64,000 nucleotides of DNA. Origin: Limanda limanda. Its lineage: Eukaryota > Chordata > Actinopteri > Pleuronectiformes > Pleuronectidae. Location of the stretch: the NCBI RefSeq assembly GCF_963576545.1, contig NC_083651.1:7919886-7983885 (forward strand), in the 5' to 3' direction. Position numbers and translations under genes: made by a program. Positions 659-63,833 of this stretch are shown in pieces. Positions within the stretch are counted from its first letter, which is position 1. Every line of letters begins with the position of its first letter. Below the pieces are notes generated by a model. That model did not search any database and was not told where the DNA came from. It saw only the letters and a list, made by a program, of their open reading frames with translations.

Positions 659-6719
<6,061 letters not shown>

Positions 6720-7960: not shown

Positions 7961-10934
7961 AAGAAAATAGAAAGAAACCAAACCAAATAGTTTTTGGTTG
8001 TTCTGTCCTCTACATCCACAGCTGCCTCAATTTGTGCCAACTGACGTTAATGTTTTGTCCTGTAGATGGAGCCAGATACTCCTTCCCTCAGAGGATGCTG
8101 TTACAAATATCCTCGTTATTGTGAAATACTTCATGTTACTGACTCTCTGTCTGGACTGACCATTTCAAATGTTACCTCCAGAAAAAATCCACAACCTACA
8201 CAGACACAACGAGTCTGTAGAGTTTGCTTAGGGCTCTACAGCCATATTTGATTTCCAGTCTGATCCAAGACTGAACCACTTATTTAAACCATAAATTTCA
8301 CTTTCAGCCTCACATGCAGTTCGTTTCTGCTTGTAAATCAGATGAAAAATACATATTTCTGTTCATATGATCAGTCTTGTTTATTGAGGGGGACAGATTC
8401 TTTCACACGTTAGCACAACAGTTTCTCATGGTATGTTTTAAAGACTTATTCACAAAGGCCTGAAACATCAGCTCAGGTCTCTGACTGAGAAGTACAAACA
8501 CACACATACACTCAGATTGACCAAGATTTACACCTTTACAGCAATTTTTGAAAGATCAGCCCCACTGTTGCATTTTAACTTAACCAGCCTCATCGGATCT
8601 CCGGAGGCAATCACAACACAAAGCGACGCGTTCTTACAACAGCCAAACATGTGATAGTTTGACTATGTGCAATACAAAAAAAATACATTATATATAGTTT
8701 TCTAAACACTTACTATCCTTTTTTTGGTTGAGCTTTTAGTACTGAAATGTACAAATATATTGGTTTATATATATTTTCCTTTTCAGTTACATCATGCTGC
8801 TTATTAATGTGGTTAATATTATTTACATTATTATTATAATTGCTATAACATGTGTACCTGTTTTTTTCCTTTCAAAAGAAGTGTTGGCTCAGTTGCCGTG
8901 TGTGCGTGGGTTTGAAAGTAACGAGCTATGTGCCTTTTCTAATGAATGTTGGAGTGTGTCGCGCCCAGTGACAGCAGGCGGCGACGACGATGATCAGTGT
9001 TTGCAGAACCTTTGCTCGCTTTGCCTCCTGCGGCCGGGCTGGTCCTGAACGCAGGAGAGAGGAGCGTGGAAAAGGTTTCACGGTTCAGAAAGAGACGATA
9101 GAAGTTAGAGGAGGAGCGAGGCAGGTCGGCTTTAGGAAATGTCATTGTAAAATAAGAATGAATTGCTTTCTCTATTTTACGAACAAACGGTTAAACTTCA
9201 GTTAAGAGTTGGTATTTGGTACATTTTCTTTATTTATCCGAAATGACCACAACGTTTGAGTGATTTTTAACTCTGTACTTTTAACTACAGAATCATGCAG
9301 TGTTCTGTATCACTCAGCAGATGACGCGTCATCCTACAACTTCATGCTTATTGACAATCAGTAAACGGTGACCGCTCTCTTTGAACTGAGCTGTGCGCTT
9401 CATTAATACCCAGCCGTTCCAACAGTATTGTGAATTTGACTCGATGGCGAACGCTAAAGAAGTCAAAACCTGTCCGGTGATTATCTGATTCAGAACTGGT
9501 TGAATGATGAAAAATGTGTGGATAAGATTTGTTACAGATGATTTTTTTATTATTATTTTGCTTGACAATGTATTGAACGTTTAGCTTTTTTATGTAAATG
9601 TGCCTTGTGTTTCTAAAGTGAGCAGCACAATCTTTAAAAGATTTCCTTCTCTAAGATCTCTTCTTCACAGTCATCTGTTATTACTGTTGATGTGGGGAAA
9701 CTGACAGAGCAAATTCTGATACACGTTCTCACTGGCTTTGTTTACATGCACAAATATTATAGTTGTTATTCTGGTCAGCAATTTACCCCAAGTAGAGCTA
9801 AGATTGCTCCCAGTAGAGCTCATACATCTGCCAACAAACCCCTTCATTTTGATCAAACCGTAAAACCAAATTGCACACAATATAAGCCACGGATATAAGC
9901 CCTCAAAATATGGGCAAATTTAATTTGATTAAAAAAATAAAAATAGATTTAATCAAGTTTCCTAAATTGTGCCCTGTGAAATTGGTGGGAATGTCAAAAT
10001 AAGTCCCTATCTCAAAATGTTACAGAATTGGATGAAAAAAATATTCCTGGATTCGTCCCTTTTTCAGATGTGCGGTAAAATTTGGTGTGTAAAGAATTAA
10101 AGCTTCTGAGATCAAAGACTGAAACGACCTATCTGAAAGTAGCTTTTTTTCCTTGGGTGACACGAAAACACCATAAAAATTGTGTTTACCGTGACTCTGT
10201 TTACTTAGAGTTACAATATACAGCTTCAGGATGGTTTTATTTGTAGTGGACTGTTTAAATTTAATTTCATAGACTGAAAGACTTTTTTCAAATGTGAAAG
10301 TGTCTGTAAACTCAGCCACTGTTTCCTAACCACAGTCTTCTGCAGATCCATCACTTGTGGATGAGGTGACTTGCTCGATGGCACCATCACTGTGACTGTT
10401 ACAGCAGGCAGACGTTGCTCTCTCACTCTTCCCCATCCAGTTGTTTCTGTGATCCGGTCCAGACGTCCTTCCACTTCTCTAAACCGCTCGTTGACCAGGA
10501 CAGACTGCTGCATGAACAAATAGCTTTATAACGACTCTGTGCAGAGTGTGTGAGTGCCACAAAGTGTGTGAGGTGTTTCCTGGATGTGTTTTTTTTAAGG
10601 TTAAAGAGTGATGACTGACAATCTTCAACTGACTTGATTGCTTCACTTGTGTATCTTTTTCATTTTGTATTTTTACTCTAAGGAGCCTCTGCTCATTTTT
10701 GATGCTTCTTAATGTATGATACAATTCTGTTACTCTTGAATTTATATTTATACAGATATACATATTTTTTGTATCTTTTTCCCCCCCCCTTTGTGCTAAT
10801 GTTCAAACATCCATGTCTACACAGTATTATAGATGATGTAATGTGGACAGCTATCTCTTTTTTTTACATTTATGTATGAACTGAGAATTTGTAAAAATGC
10901 TTTCACAGTCCTTGTGTGTAAAATGTATGTATAA

Positions 10935-11149: not shown

Positions 11150-11508
11150 TATTACTTTTTTTCTCACTTAATTAAAACTTTATTCTCATATTTAGAATTT
11201 CTTCTGAATTAATACTTTATTAAATCTACCACTTTACTCTCAATATATTAACCTAGTATTTTCAAATTGTGACTTGTCTAATTACAACCTAATCCTCTTA
11301 AATTACAACTCTATTCTCATAAAATTATGACTATTATCTTAATATGACATTTCTCAATATAAAACATTTTTATTGTATTGTAATATTACAATTCTCTTTA
11401 GATACAGACTTGTATTCTTGACTCTCATAATATAGCAACTTTATACTTCTAATCTAATGACATGCTTCTCAATTCTGACTTTATTCTCTTATATTATATC
11501 TGATATTA
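11150..11508. repeat. Degenerate AT-rich tandem repeat
   Basis: A diverged array of roughly 20-25 bp units around the theme TTCTCATAATATTACAACTTTA (for example near 11283-11335, 11400-11450 and 11470-11510). It resembles the 'ACGACTTTATTCTCGTAA' minisatellite common in fish DNA, decayed by CpG loss. It runs directly into the dispersed repeat that follows. Confidence 0.5.
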
Positions 11509-11878
11509 CAACTTTCTCAAAATATTAAAATTAAGACTTTTTTTTCCTCATTAAATTACAACTGAATTTGCATGATATATATTTGCTCCAGGCAGGAGGA
11601 TATCAGAGGACATTTAGGCTCAAAACATGTAAATGTAAAGCCGTTTCAAGTTGAATTTGAAGTTCTGCCATTTACGGACACTTTAATGACACCACACGAG
11701 GAGTATGGAGGCATTTTCTGTTGATTTTCTGTTTTGTTTTTATATGTTTGAAGAATTTGCCGCCATTTACACTAATTGTATTGGATTTGGCTGCAACACC
11801 GTTTACACTTGAGACTCCAGAGGGGTTCTGTGGAGTTAAACACTTCACCTACTCCTCCATCGGCATAGTGGTGGTGTA
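11509..11878. repeat. Dispersed teleost repeat, copy A (interrupted by Tc1)
   Basis: Nearly identical to 16149-16508, in the same orientation. Shared blocks include CAGGCAGGAGGATATCAGAG, TGACACCACACGAGGAGTAT, GTATTGGATTTGGCTGCAAC and CTCCATCGGCATAGTGGTGG. Copy A stops at GTGGTGTA, exactly where the Tc1-like element begins, so the repeat was the older sequence at this point. Confidence 0.75.
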
Positions 11879-12106
11879 CAGTTGCAATCAGAAATATTCA
11901 ACCCCCTCACCTCAATAGACATTATAGTGATGTGGACGACAGATAATGACAATAAATGGCAAAAAACCTCATTAAACAACAAAAGATATTTATTGATGCG
12001 TATTTTGTTTATTTTGACAACAGAAGTTGACTTAACTTTGAAGTCCAAATGAAAAATTTAACTCTTTCAACACATGTGCATGTGCAGTATTATTCAACCC
12101 CCAGCT

Positions 12107-12447
12107 TCAGTACTTAGTGGCGCATCCTCTAGCTTTTATAACTTCTAACAAACGTTTTCGGTAAGTGCGGACAAGCTTCTTACACCTCTCGATTGGAATC
12201 TTTGCCCATTTTTCACGTGCAAATACCTCTAGCTCAGTGATGTTTCATGGCTTCCGTGCTCCAACTGCCTTCTTTAAATCCCACCAAAGATTTTCAATAG
12301 GATTTTAATCTGTTGACTGGGAAAGCCACTCCAGGACGTTCCAGGATCTTTTTCTCAACCAAGCTTGACATGATGCCATGTACACGATCAAGATTGCTAG
12401 TTCCTGCCACAGAAAAACAGCCCAACATCATCAATGACCAACCTCCA
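12107..12447 (-). pseudogene. Tc1-like transposase, C-terminal half (pseudogene)
   Basis: On the - strand from 12447 the frame resumes as GGWSLMMLGCFSVAGTSNLD. It then skips the region holding the second catalytic Asp and continues through degraded ERPGVAFPVN (from LEWPSQSPDLN-type sequence), frame breaks, and the usual Tc1 end RGCATKY with a stop at 12107-12109. Joined to 15276-15816 across the insertion, the reading frame is continuous at KHGG. Confidence 0.8.
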
Positions 12448-12539
12448 CACTAGACGAAAAGCAGTATTATTGTCACAGTGAACCTCTACGGACAGGCCTA
12501 ATCCCCTGCTGTAACCAACTGTTTCCATGATGTTACCTC

Positions 12540-12690
12540 GGCGTTCGCCAGTGAAGACAAGGTGGGTCTATCGGCGTTTGCGGACCTTAAGGGGGATTTG
12601 GAGAACAAAGGAGAGAGCCGCGGGGGGGCTCGCGCCGCCGCGCGGACCGATCGCGACGTGTGATCTAATTAGCATATGAATCGGAGTCCA
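12540..12690. promoter_or_regulatory. CpG-rich block inside the CACTA-type element (possible orphan promoter)
   Basis: A sharp GC/CpG island in AT-rich surroundings, including CTCGCGCCGCCGCGCGGACC near 12628-12650. CCAAT-type ATTGG motifs occur at about 12720, 12758 and 12785. Read on the - strand, the block ends with a good splice donor (CCGAG|GTAACA, boundary near 12541) but no matching downstream exon follows before the element edge at 12448. It may be the promoter and first exon of a truncated gene. It has no similarity that I recognise to rRNA or snRNA. Confidence 0.35.
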
Positions 12691-13009
12691 GCCGCTGGCT
12701 AGAACCTCTCTCTACTCACCATTGGAGGAAACCACAGACCCTTGAAACTAATGTCACTCGTGATTGGCTGGTAGAAGTGTTGCTATTGGTCACCTTATGG
12801 GTCATTGCAGTGCACACGTGGGGTCACAGCATTCCGCACGTGGGGTAAGCCCCTCCCACACAATATTTATAATAAAAATGTATATATTAATATTTATTAT
12901 TATTTATAAGTAAGCCTTTACCAAAAGCACTGCAGTTAATTAAAACTAAACATTCATGTGATGCTTGATGCTATAGGTGAACATATTGTACAGGGAACAA
13001 ATGTGAACA

Positions 13010-13836
13010 AGGTATATGTGGAGTGAAAGCTTTATTTACATACAGCAAAAATATTGTACAAAATCTGAGGTGAGGCTTGAAATGTTTCTCTGCAGCCTCT
13101 GGGTCATGACTTCTTTGTGGGACTCTTCTCCAGTGTGTAGACGTCTGTGGTGTGTAGCTGTGAGATCAGTGTAGCTTCCAGTCTTATATGAAGTGTGGGA
13201 CACAGGTCGGTGTGCTCCTGGCTGTGGAAGGATGGATCCATGTCATCTGTCCCGCTTCAATCAGCTGTAAACACATTCAGTAAAATTAGCACAGTTCAAT
13301 GACAACATACACCTTTACATGTAACTGGAAAATTATTTAATGAATATAACCTTACCCTCTTTCTTCTCCGACAACTCCTCAATGCTGATGTAAGGTCTGG
13401 TCGGATCATACTGGCTCATAGTGTGTCTTTGTACGTCATGGACAGGCAGCTGGAAAACAACACATGTAACATGACTTTATTATTAATAAACGGAAATAGC
13501 CGCGCTGCATCACCGTTGGAAGATCCACAGCAAAAAAACACCAAAACAATTCATAAACAGTTACTTACATTCAATGGCTTAATTTTCTGCACTTTAAATC
13601 CGGACTTTCAGCGTCTCAGCCTAACGCCTCTTTGTTTGTGTGTGTGTGGGGGGGGGGGGCTGAGGCTGTGAAAACATACAGAAAAAAGTCACGTTGATGA
13701 AAAAACTTAACGAGAACAAACTGTTACATCTAAGTAATTCATACATATTTACACATGCACTAGATCTGCTCCAGCACTCGATGCTGTATTCGTATTTTAG
13801 CAACTTTCTCGCTATCCCAAAGAGTGGCGGACATGG
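13010..13836 (-). CDS. Candidate spliced small-protein gene inside the CACTA-type element (unrecognised)
   Basis: I do not recognise the product. Features read on the - strand: a terminal exon from 13267 down to a poly(A) signal AATAAA (13036-13031); an internal exon 13449-13356 with acceptor TTTTCCAG and donor GTAAG, open as LPVHDVQRHTMSQYDPTRPY then ISIEELSEKKE, closing two codons into the next exon; and an upstream open segment 13604-13569 (SGFKVQKIKPLN) with a consensus donor GTAAGT but a weak acceptor. A possible first exon begins at ATG 13834-13832 (MSATLWDSEKVAKIRIQHR). Phases of the 36-bp, middle and last exons agree. The first exon is uncertain. Coordinates cover the inferred transcription unit. 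Confidence 0.4.
13031..13036 (-). promoter_or_regulatory. Polyadenylation signal of the - strand cargo gene
   Basis: AATAAA on the - strand (TTTATT as given), about 225 bp after the inferred stop codon and followed by a T/G-containing stretch. It supports a real 3' end for the spliced - strand unit. Confidence 0.5.
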
Positions 13837-14180
13837 TTTCAGATGTACCAGTTAGCTTAGTGGTTAGCATGGCGTCTCTAGCTCACCGTAACTCAGGGAC
13901 TGTGCTTCCGTCTTCTCCGCCTCGACTCGTCCACACCGGGCCCGCGGCTCTGCCTCCACACGCACTCATCTTCTCCTCCAGGGAACAGCGTCGTGTCGAC
14001 TTCAGCAAGTTATTTACCCCGAAGACAGAGTCACTCGTACGGGACAAGCTAAACACGACCCGCTTCCTGTCTGCGGGACACTCGACGCTGCTGCACGGCG
14101 TTTACGAGGCTCTGATTGGACGAGTCCATCAGCTGATGACGCGAGCGGGTGACGTGAGCAGCGGTTACTTCATGGGATAA
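13833..14180 (+). CDS. Unrecognised 115-codon ORF (possibly 103 aa from second ATG) inside the CACTA-type element
   Basis: An intact GC-rich ORF with protein-like composition, in contrast to its AT-rich surroundings. The first ATG is at 13833. A second ATG at 13869 sits in a better context (TTAGCATGGCG) and gives MASLAHRNSGTVLPSSPPRL; the shorter form is my preferred start. Visible features are a Pro/Ser-rich N-terminal part, a central basic stretch (SSREQRRVDFSKLFTPKTES), and a helical C-terminal half ending RAGDVSSGYFMG. There is no signal peptide, membrane segment or known catalytic motif. Two AATAAA signals near 14842-14860 could end the transcript. It is not similar to any transposase I know. 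It could be captured host sequence or an element-specific gene. Confidence 0.55.
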   Translation: MVSDVPVSLVVSMASLAHRNSGTVLPSSPPRLVHTGPAALPPHALIFSSREQRRVDFSKLFTPKTESLVRDKLNTTRFLSAGHSTLLHGVYEALIGRVHQLMTRAGDVSSGYFMG

Positions 14181-14255
14181 GTATTTGACTGAGGCCAGGT
14201 TTATTTTTTGTGGTGTTTAGTAAATTTACACACATGATTCACTCATGCTGTTCTG

Positions 14256-14312
14256 TGTTCGTAACCTTATAGTTGAATGCACTTATTGTAAGTCGCTTTG
14301 GATAAAAGTGTT
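14256..14312 (+). repeat. Short teleost repeat motif (SINE-tail-like)
   Basis: Contains TTGTAAGTCGCTTTGGATAA and AAGTGT, a sequence seen at the 3' ends of many fish short interspersed repeats and transcripts. Only this short piece is recognisable. Confidence 0.4.
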
Positions 14313-14841
14313 GACTGTTTTAATGGAATACTGAGAAAGTTTAATAACAACAATTAGACAATTGAAGTTCAAATTATGAAGGAATTTAAGCTCTATATTG
14401 TGTCTCCTTTATATTTAAAATAATAATCAAACTGAGTGGAGATGTATGTTGTATCCAAACAGCCGGCTGCTGTGTTTTGTCACTGTGCAGTCCATGGGGG
14501 ATTAAATATTACACTGAAAAAATAAATCATTAAATCAATGAATGTTTCATAGCAATTTTGAAAGTAGTGGTGAAAAGGTACCATTTATAATTCATGGAAC
14601 AGCTTAGTTTGCCATTGACATGTGAATTTGATGCCAGTATTTTGGGAGGACAGATATTTTTATGGAAAGCCAGTAGAAGTTTGGAGCTTACAGGACACAG
14701 ATGATCATACCCAGCATCATTTATTTGCTGGTAGAGGTGTGGTTTACACTTCCTCTGTGCATTTAACCAGCACAATTGAAAAAGTGACTGTAATCATGCC
14801 ACTCTATACAGTTGTTGAGATTTAGGATTGTTTTGGATGAC

Positions 14842-14860
14842 AATAAAAATTTGAAATAAA
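14842..14860 (+). promoter_or_regulatory. Tandem polyadenylation signals downstream of the + strand cargo ORF
   Basis: AATAAA at 14842-14847 and again at 14855-14860, followed by GTGCATTGTTTCATTTCTTT. Suitable 3' end for a transcript starting near 13830. Confidence 0.45.
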
Positions 14861-15275
14861 GTGCATTGTTTCATTTCTTTTGACTGCATTGACCTTTGTT
14901 CGTGGTATACAATATAATTCATTATAGCACACTTACTTACTTAAGAACAATTTAAAATTTCAGGTTTAATATTTATTTTAAGCCTGGTTTACTCAGCCAG
15001 ATAGTTTGTTGGTGCCTCTTACACATTGGTGTTATCTGCTCTCAGGGAAACTGATTTGCATTTGTGAAGCTCAGAGCATTGTCATTTGCATATGAAAGCG
15101 TCCTCTAGGAGTTGGAGCAGGGGGGGTCAAATCTCAACAGCTCACAGGCTTGACAACTGCAGGAACCCTGAGCGTTTCCTTTGCTGCCTGCAGATACGTG
15201 TGAAAGTCGTTAACCGAAGGATGTGCCAACACTTCTCTGCGACACAGATTGACACAAACGCTTCTTTTCATGCAG

Positions 15276-15816
15276 TGCCATGCTTGACCTTATGGTCATA
15301 AGCCTGGCCTTTCATACGCCAGACATACCGCTCGTCCATACGTCCAAACAGTTCCAGTTTGGTTTCATCAGTCCAGAGAACTGTCACCCAAAACTCAGTA
15401 GTCTTATCCAAATTCCTCCTGGCATATTCTAGTCGACTTTTGATGTTCCTTGTGGTCAAGAGCTGAGTGCGTCTTGGAGTCCAGCCATGGAGTCCTTGTT
15501 TATTCAGTGCACCTCTTATAGTTGCCACTGAAGCACTTGTACCAGCCTTCATCAGGTCATCCTGTAGGTGTCTTGCAGTCACACAGGGGTTTATCTGAGT
15601 TGTTCTGACTAAGTTGCTGAGGGCCATTGATGAAATGTTGGGCTTTCTTCCACCGCCAGGCAGGTTTGCAGCTGCTCCATAAGTTTTAAACTTCCTTATA
15701 ATGTTCCCAATGGTGTCTCTTGGAATATAATTTTTTGGGGAAATCTTCTTCTACCCAAGGCCTTTCAGGTGTATTTCCTCTCTCAGCTTTTGTGCAAGCT
15801 CCTTTGTCTTTCCCAT
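15276..15816 (-). pseudogene. Tc1-like transposase, N-terminal half (pseudogene)
   Basis: The - strand start ATG is at 15816-15814 (MGKTKELAQKL). A paired-type DNA-binding region follows, with an in-frame stop about 20 codons in, then GGGRKPNIS, HLQDDLMKAG, GLHGWTPRRTQLL and the catalytic-core block VLWTDETKLELFG with the first Asp of the DDE triad. The frame runs to KVKHG at 15280 and is then cut by the inserted element. Clear Tc1-family signature; not functional. Confidence 0.85.
15280..15280. other. Right boundary of the CCA target duplication of the CACTA-type insertion
   Basis: CCA at 15278-15280 matches CCA at 12445-12447. Together they bracket the 2830 bp insertion and give its base-exact ends. 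Confidence 0.75.
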
Positions 15817-16148
15817 GATTGCAACTCACCTTGAATACCTTCATTGGTGGAGTTTATATATGCATCACAGCTGAAGCAAAAGGATCATTATATTGTTCCC
15901 AAAGGCATAATTATGTTACAACTCCACTTTAGGACAAAAAAACTGTCAGACACCTTTTAAAACAACAATATTTTATAGGGGTTGAATAATTGCGACCTGG
16001 CTATCTTTGCAAAATATACTGCTACACACAAATACTACATCGTGCATTTTCCGTGTTGACAACTCATAAATAAGTCATCTGAAGCAGAGTCTTGCTCTTT
16101 GATCAAGATTCTGTCAACTTTAATTGATAAACCCACCGCCTCCGATTA

Positions 16149-16555
16149 ATATTACAACTTTCGCAAAATATTAAAATTAAGACTTTTTTTCGTCAATAAA
16201 TTACAATTTAATTTGCATGATATATATTGGCTCCAGGCAGGAGGATATCAGAGGACATTTAGGCTCAAAACATGATGTAAATGTAAAACCATTTTGAGTT
16301 GAATTTGAATGTTTACAGACACTTTAATGACACCACACGAGGAGTATGGAGGCATTTTCTGTTATGTTTTTGTATGTTTGAAGAATTTGCCACCATTTAC
16401 TTGAATTGTATTGGATTTGGCTGCAACACTGTTTACACTTGAGACTCCAGAAGGGTTCGGTGGACTCAAACACTTCACCTATACCTCCATCGGCATAGTG
16501 GTGGTGTAGATAAGGAGTGTCTTTTCATTTTTCTGTGAACTATCCCTTTAATTAC
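16149..16555. repeat. Dispersed teleost repeat, copy B (complete right end)
   Basis: Direct-orientation partner of 11509-11878. Past the point where copy A is interrupted it continues GATAAGGAGTGTCTTTTC and ends at GTGAACTATCCCTTTAA. The latter resembles the TTAAAGGGATAGTTCAC terminus of common fish MITEs, so the repeat is probably the right part of such an element. Confidence 0.65.

Positions 16556-20682: not shown

Positions 20683-63833
<43,151 letters not shown>

Follow-up and report, generated by a model that had tools for sequence, protein, structure and literature searches.

A probable non-autonomous CACTA transposon in Limanda limanda retains remnants of its own divergent genes

A 64,000-nucleotide stretch of the Limanda limanda genome (assembly GCF_963576545.1, contig NC_083651.1, positions 7,919,886 to 7,983,885 of the forward strand; the whole stretch is called the window, and window positions are counted from its first base) contains a 2830-bp insert that splits a dead Tc1 transposon. 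The insert is very probably a non-autonomous, internally deleted DNA transposon of the CACTA (EnSpm, CMC) superfamily, an ordinary shortened transposon and not a carrier of host genes. An earlier note, made from the sequence alone, had assigned the insert to this superfamily, and the assignment was borne out by full-length elements in the same genome (the 'partners') that have the same ends, carry Transposase_21 and are flanked by 3-bp target-site duplications (TSDs). The note had also described the interior as an apparently intact divergent gene pair carried as cargo; this description was not upheld, both genes being recognisable as remnants of a CACTA transposase and of an accessory gene. 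The insert and the interrupted Tc1 comprised the following features:

12448..15277 (2830 bp), plus strand: very probable non-autonomous CACTA element, with fixed ends, 3-bp TSDs and multiple copies, largely collinear with the partner at C2
12445..12447, no strand: TSD CCA, left copy, read directly from the sequence
15278..15280, no strand: TSD CCA, right copy, read directly from the sequence
12448..12475, plus strand: left terminal inverted repeat, CACTAGACGAAAAG..., shared without change by the three full-length partners
15250..15277, minus strand: right terminal inverted repeat, CACTGCATGAAAAG... (minus-strand reading), identical in the C2 partner
15281..15999, minus strand: interrupted Tc1, 5' half, matching PF01498, outer end placed by eye
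11879..12447, minus strand: interrupted Tc1, 3' half, in which the frame resumes with WSLMMLGCF, outer end placed by eye

Recomputation reproduced exactly the insert at 12448-15277, the CCA on both sides and the split Tc1 frame reported in the earlier note, as well as its count for the inverted termini CACTA/CACTG (CACT...AGTG), in which 20 of the 28 outer positions agree when one end is reverse-complemented. None of 200,000 pairs of 28-mers drawn at random from the window reached 20 matches (highest 19). For the C12 and C19 partners, the outer 14 bp of the right terminal repeat were seen. When the insert was removed together with one CCA, a single open Tc1 frame spanned the junction on the minus strand (...DHKVKHGG-W-SLMMLGCF..., reading ...DHKVKHGGWSLMMLGCFSVAG...); the frame was thus continuous on excision, as had been claimed, but the claimed KVKHGG-SLMM codons omitted the W. 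The rejoined frame met stops further on, and the Tc1 is therefore dead. Its right half matched PF01498, a Tc1-type transposase family (E=3.2e-17), and its left half on its own matched no Pfam family. By eye, the Tc1 junctions showed TA at the left and none at the right, and the sequences flanking the Tc1 (window 11503-11770 and 16149-16400) form a direct repeat, about 4.6 kb apart and 89-98% identical by segment. Single-strand folding of the left end of the element was unremarkable (z +1.1).

The insert belongs to a repeated family, whose copies share its ends. In the genome searched (717 Mb, 336 contigs), the 2830-bp query gave at least 44 rows of matches, from 40 scored out of 721 first-look candidates, and an internal 31-mer of the short element had 171 exact matches (80 forward, 91 reverse), compared to 0 for a reversed-word control. 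Thirty-nine further places were fetched from the 2830-bp match list. L047, where the left part was absent, was excluded from the count and the window copy was added, for a total of 39 places; these gave 41 end-pairs, since the inverted copies at L037 can be paired in three ways. A 3-bp TSD is a hallmark of CACTA/EnSpm elements, and exact 3-bp duplications were found for 36 of the 41 end-pairs (35 of 39 with one pair per place) and for all three full-length partners; those of the end-pairs comprised 23 different trinucleotides. Because of this, the boundaries of the insert are certain. The end-pairs lacking an exact 3-bp duplication were L031, L037_3, L038, L040 and L042. Other copies with the same ends and duplications, which the earlier note had proposed to look for, are thus present in the genome. 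Divergence of the copies from their consensus was 0.14-1.1% (median 0.28%; 41 end-pairs, which as the best-scoring copies are biased towards young, complete ones), and this low divergence suggests a young family that moved recently.

Some of the copies had features of their own. Linked changes at element positions 187, 188, 189 and 193 in 8 of the 41 end-pairs mark subfamilies within positions 187-193 (about window 12634-12640), and a change at position 192 occurred in a different 8 of the 41. At L037 (G000:C3:17633514-17640042) and L041 (G000:C11:22014718-22021098), copies were inverted and abutting or nested, as if one copy of the family had inserted into another. A copy with both ends on C9 (L048+L049, G000:C9:27104000-27120000) contained a nested insertion of about 1.2 kb (joined positions 8349-9581), in which we take one stretch to be histone-H3-like and a repeat to resemble the end of another DNA transposon.

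A Pfam PF02992 (Transposase_21) search of the genome gave ten matches, eight of which were cut out and compared; the loci on C2, C12 and C19 were near-identical, the one on C4 was related, and those on C7, C8, C17 and at a second place on C12 formed a separate group. Elements sharing the insert's ends were delimited at C2 (10288986-10295680, 6695 bp, TSD AAA), C19 (9294034-9300728, 6695 bp, TSD AGT) and C12 (1035371-1041685, 6315 bp, TSD TAT), and terminal inverted repeats of the CACTR type were shared by the insert (CACTA/CACTG) and these three partners. The C2 and C19 elements were 99.94% identical over 3432 bases. Between the ends of the C2 element, a 402-residue frame matched Transposase_21 (E=1.6e-21), the following 531-residue frame reached 24.9 bits with PF13960 (DUF4218), just under the cut-off of 27, and a frame on the opposite strand matched DUF4616 at 42.9 bits (cut-off 27); PF02992 was matched at the C12 and C19 elements too. 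In plant CACTA elements, DUF4218 lies downstream of Transposase_21. When the transposase frame was used as query (all 44 candidates scored), three open full-length copies (C2, C12 and C19) were recovered, along with nine fragments on C4, C5 and C10, of which all but one contained stops. The existence of an autonomous partner with a CMC transposase had been put forward as a check on the CACTA assignment, and it is answered by these three elements of 6.3-6.7 kb, which share the insert's ends, are flanked by 3-bp duplications and carry a Transposase_21 gene. The outermost 81 bp (C2, C19) or 180 bp (C12) at the left and the outermost 129 bp at the right (C2) were identical in insert and partner, while the alignable interior pieces differed by about 13-32%. 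The members of the second Transposase_21 group (G000, C7:24226651-24230076, C8:29496437-29499862, C17:1355390-1358791 and C12:421706-425110) were 93-99% identical to each other where pieces aligned, and their longest frame reached 741 residues.

The interior of the insert was compared with the C2 partner, using shuffles that preserved base composition only (q denotes position within the insert), and resolved into the following parts:

12448..12824 (q1-377), plus strand: left terminal block, including the first CpG-rich stretch, 97-98% identical to the full-length partners
13074..13570, minus strand: putative decayed accessory gene with splice-like sites, counterpart of the partners' DUF4616 gene by collinear alignment
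13571..14182, no strand: CpG-rich block, placed where the partner has the stretch separating its divergent genes, with weak collinear homology to that partner
14207..14391, plus strand: putative CACTA transposase remnant (FNGILRKFNNNN...TIEVQIM), past a large internal deletion (q1760-1944 against partner 5322-5514)
14649..14822, plus strand: putative CACTA transposase C-terminal end (DRYFYGKPVEVWSLQ...TVVEI, then stop), by protein match to the partner
14648..15277 (q2201-2830), plus strand: right terminal block with AATAAA sites (by eye), 93.7% identical to the C2 partner

On the plus strand, q1736-1960, which holds the first transposase piece, aligned clearly with the partner (z 13.6), and the transposase C-terminus was 73% identical to that of the partner over 63 residues (E=3e-23, pairwise comparison). 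The plus-strand 'gene' is, judged by these similarities, a remnant of the CACTA transposase C-terminus, the bulk of the transposase gene (roughly partner 2195-5320) being absent from the insert. On the minus strand, q627-1128 was collinear with partner 714-1351, part of the accessory gene on the minus strand (z 30.7; at the peptide level, PSFHSQEHTDLCPTLHIRLEA in the insert compared with PSFRSRELSDLCATLQTRLEA in the partner), so that the minus-strand 'gene' appears to correspond to a decayed counterpart of the transposon's own divergent accessory gene; the insert's own reading of the accessory exon matched no Pfam family. Since the order of a full-length CACTA element is largely preserved in the insert, the divergent pair is mainly the transposon's own divergent genes in ruins. 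Splice-like and poly(A)-like sites, on which the description of two apparent genes had partly rested, are present by eye, but neither gene is intact. Of three shorter pieces searched, the transposase C-terminal piece alone gave a match, to Catalase_C at 13.9 bits with a cut-off of 24.6, which was taken as chance.

Several observations weigh against the identification of the insert as a shortened member of this CACTA family. Parts of the interior resembled the partner only weakly: q1124-1500 (z 6.7; score 73, best shuffle 69) and q1601-1740 (z 6.3; score 48, best shuffle 38), both compared with the first-exon side of the accessory gene and the inter-gene space. Matches were marginal for q377-626 (82, best shuffle 80) and q1946-2200 (62, best shuffle 60), and with stricter scoring q1945-2151 fell below its best shuffle (25 versus 32). 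The transposase remnants were 73% (protein, 63 residues) and 75-86% (DNA pieces) identical to those of the partners, no direct parent of the short element was found among the full-length partners, and a parental lineage is therefore inferred. Among ten unfetched places, hand-picked over contigs from 100 listed 31-mer matches, nine had an exact left end where it was expected, six a right end (one mismatched) and four an exact TSD; four places had both ends and a TSD, two had both ends without a TSD, and four missed one or both ends at the distance expected. With six of the ten lacking the full set, the 31-mer matches need not all be complete elements. The length of the TSD also varies among CACTA elements, being 2 bp in SmTRC1 according to parts of PMC1636069, and 5 nt in rice and maize elements according to the literature on plant elements cited below.

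The CpG-rich block at 13571-14182 is the part of the insert for which an origin in the host was considered, namely that a host promoter with first exons was captured into a CACTA shell and then spread, as in Pack-CACTA elements. The block is high in CpG, has no strong match in the C2 partner, and its frames, among the four non-Tc1 frames and peptides of the insert that were searched, matched no Pfam family; Pack-TIRs, moreover, exist in animals according to parts of PMC8277862. However, the block lies at the position collinear with the partner's inter-gene region (with weak similarity that was nevertheless above the shuffles), CACTA gene remnants lie on either side of it, and its plus-strand 138-aa frame has that length in only 24 of the 41 copies, being longer, shorter or differently ended elsewhere. 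Such a Pack-CACTA origin is thus improbable, and host capture of the CpG block alone is unlikely. The MSQYDPTR... peptide matched no PDB chain. A protein search with the CpG-block frame gave a single match (P0001, on a 1956-base ENA contig; 16 candidates), which is presumably another copy of the element, since the residues around the match resemble a translation of the element itself. A histone-promoter origin had been considered for the left block, in which we take octamer, CCAAT and TATA motifs to be present; the histone-H3-like stretch on C9 is a separate insertion nested in a copy with both ends, and is uninformative on the element.

Capture of host genes by the element is not supported by these comparisons. 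The earlier note had proposed it for the gene pair as a whole, a proposal against which stand the CACTA gene remnants flanking the CpG block and a layout that is that of a full-length CACTA element. Passages on plant Pack-CACTA (PMC8903248, PMC13317346) and animal Pack-TIRs (PMC8277862) describe gene-capturing elements with terminal inverted repeats, and these resemble the insert as non-autonomous elements with a gene-like interior. In contrast to them, the identified interior here is gene material of the transposon itself, as opposed to host DNA for which a parental locus is identified; host sequence with a parental copy was not encountered, both 'genes' matching the full-length CACTA element, in searches that included none dedicated to a host parent. 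That two functional host genes occupy the locus, with the transposon halves around them coincidental, can be dismissed despite the splice-like and poly(A)-like sites, as the same 2.83 kb, transposase remnants included, recurs at many sites with different flanks, which is decisive.

The accessory gene of the partners could be followed through its DUF4616 (PF15394) matches in this genome (all 7 candidates scored). There were five, each within CACTA-like sequence and each on the opposite strand from the transposase:

G000:C2:10294687-10294926, C19:9299735-9299974 and C12:1040726-1040965, opposite to transposase: DUF4616 profile matches in the full-length partners
G000:C5:6107954-6108193 and C5:6116358-6116606, opposite to transposase: DUF4616 profile matches on C5

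The surroundings of the two C5 copies aligned with the partner in pieces at 73-85% identity, and pieces of transposase lie at distances of 2.5 and 4.0 kb from them. Between the partner and the two C5 copies, dN/dS was 0.29 and 0.35 for the DUF4616 exon and 0.41 and 0.46 for the first exon of the accessory gene, and on account of these values the gene looks to be under selection between lineages; between the two C5 copies themselves, the accessory-gene values were 0.46 and 0.96. DUF4616 had no match in 14 control genomes, and a literature search found no paper naming it. The DUF4616 protein is possibly a CACTA helper protein.

By class assignment, the family would be a further CACTA member beside the animal CACTA and non-autonomous fish EnSpm elements that are known already. 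Parts of PMC1636069 describe animal CACTA elements, among them SmTRC1 of Schistosoma and related sequences of Danio rerio, with which the family described here has in common the CACTA superfamily and its Transposase_21 (PF02992) domain. SmTRC1 had a 2-bp duplication in 7 of 14 copies, compared to 3 bp in 36 of 41 here, and the full-length elements in L. limanda carry a divergent DUF4616 gene, a distinction drawn by description and not by sequence. Zebrafish EnSpm families, some of them non-autonomous and with lineage-specific expression in embryos (parts of PMC9341512), are similar in being non-autonomous CACTA copies in a fish genome, and the 2.8-kb element, which keeps gene remnants and a CpG-rich interior, is set apart from them by description only. 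CACTA copies have also been described at a cichlid inversion (parts of PMC12530302). Assignment to Chapaev3 would agree with the CAC...GTG ends and 3-4-bp duplications given for Chapaev in parts of PMC4079192, but Chapaev3 duplicates TWA according to the same source, while TAA/TTA made up 3 of the 36 exact duplications here, and the partner transposase matches Transposase_21 (no search for a Chapaev-type transposase being made); this alternative has almost no probability.

The following course of events would account for the element as a non-autonomous CACTA transposon. The full-length CACTA element is arranged as left end, minus-strand accessory gene, a region between the divergent genes that is probably their promoter, plus-strand transposase gene and right end. 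A diverged relative would have lost most of the transposase gene and kept both ends, the decayed accessory gene, the inter-gene region and the transposase C-terminus. As the ends are identical while the interiors have diverged, one transposase may serve both forms: the full-length relative's transposase would recognise the shared ends and mobilise the short element, each move leaving a 3-bp target duplication, and one copy landed in the now-dead Tc1. Three open partners, compared to 171 31-mer matches of the short element, are in keeping with a non-autonomous family that depends on few full-length copies.

Elsewhere in the window, a second Tc1-like transposase with two open frames was recognised by eye on the minus strand at 25914-26813, and neither the Rfam scan nor the tRNA scan of the window gave a match.

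The insert illustrates that a non-autonomous transposon retaining pieces of its own divergent genes can pass for a gene carrier. DUF4616, a Pfam family of unknown function, is here part of a CACTA accessory gene, which could aid annotators. There is a small chance that the CpG-rich inter-gene region, whether native to the element or taken from the host, is a still-active bidirectional promoter spread genome-wide by a recent burst, in which case a non-autonomous CACTA element would have carried a mobile promoter to many sites in this fish. The short element, young and present in many copies, and the three full-length partners that share its ends form a matched pair in one fish genome, and such a pair would make vertebrate CACTA transposition directly testable.

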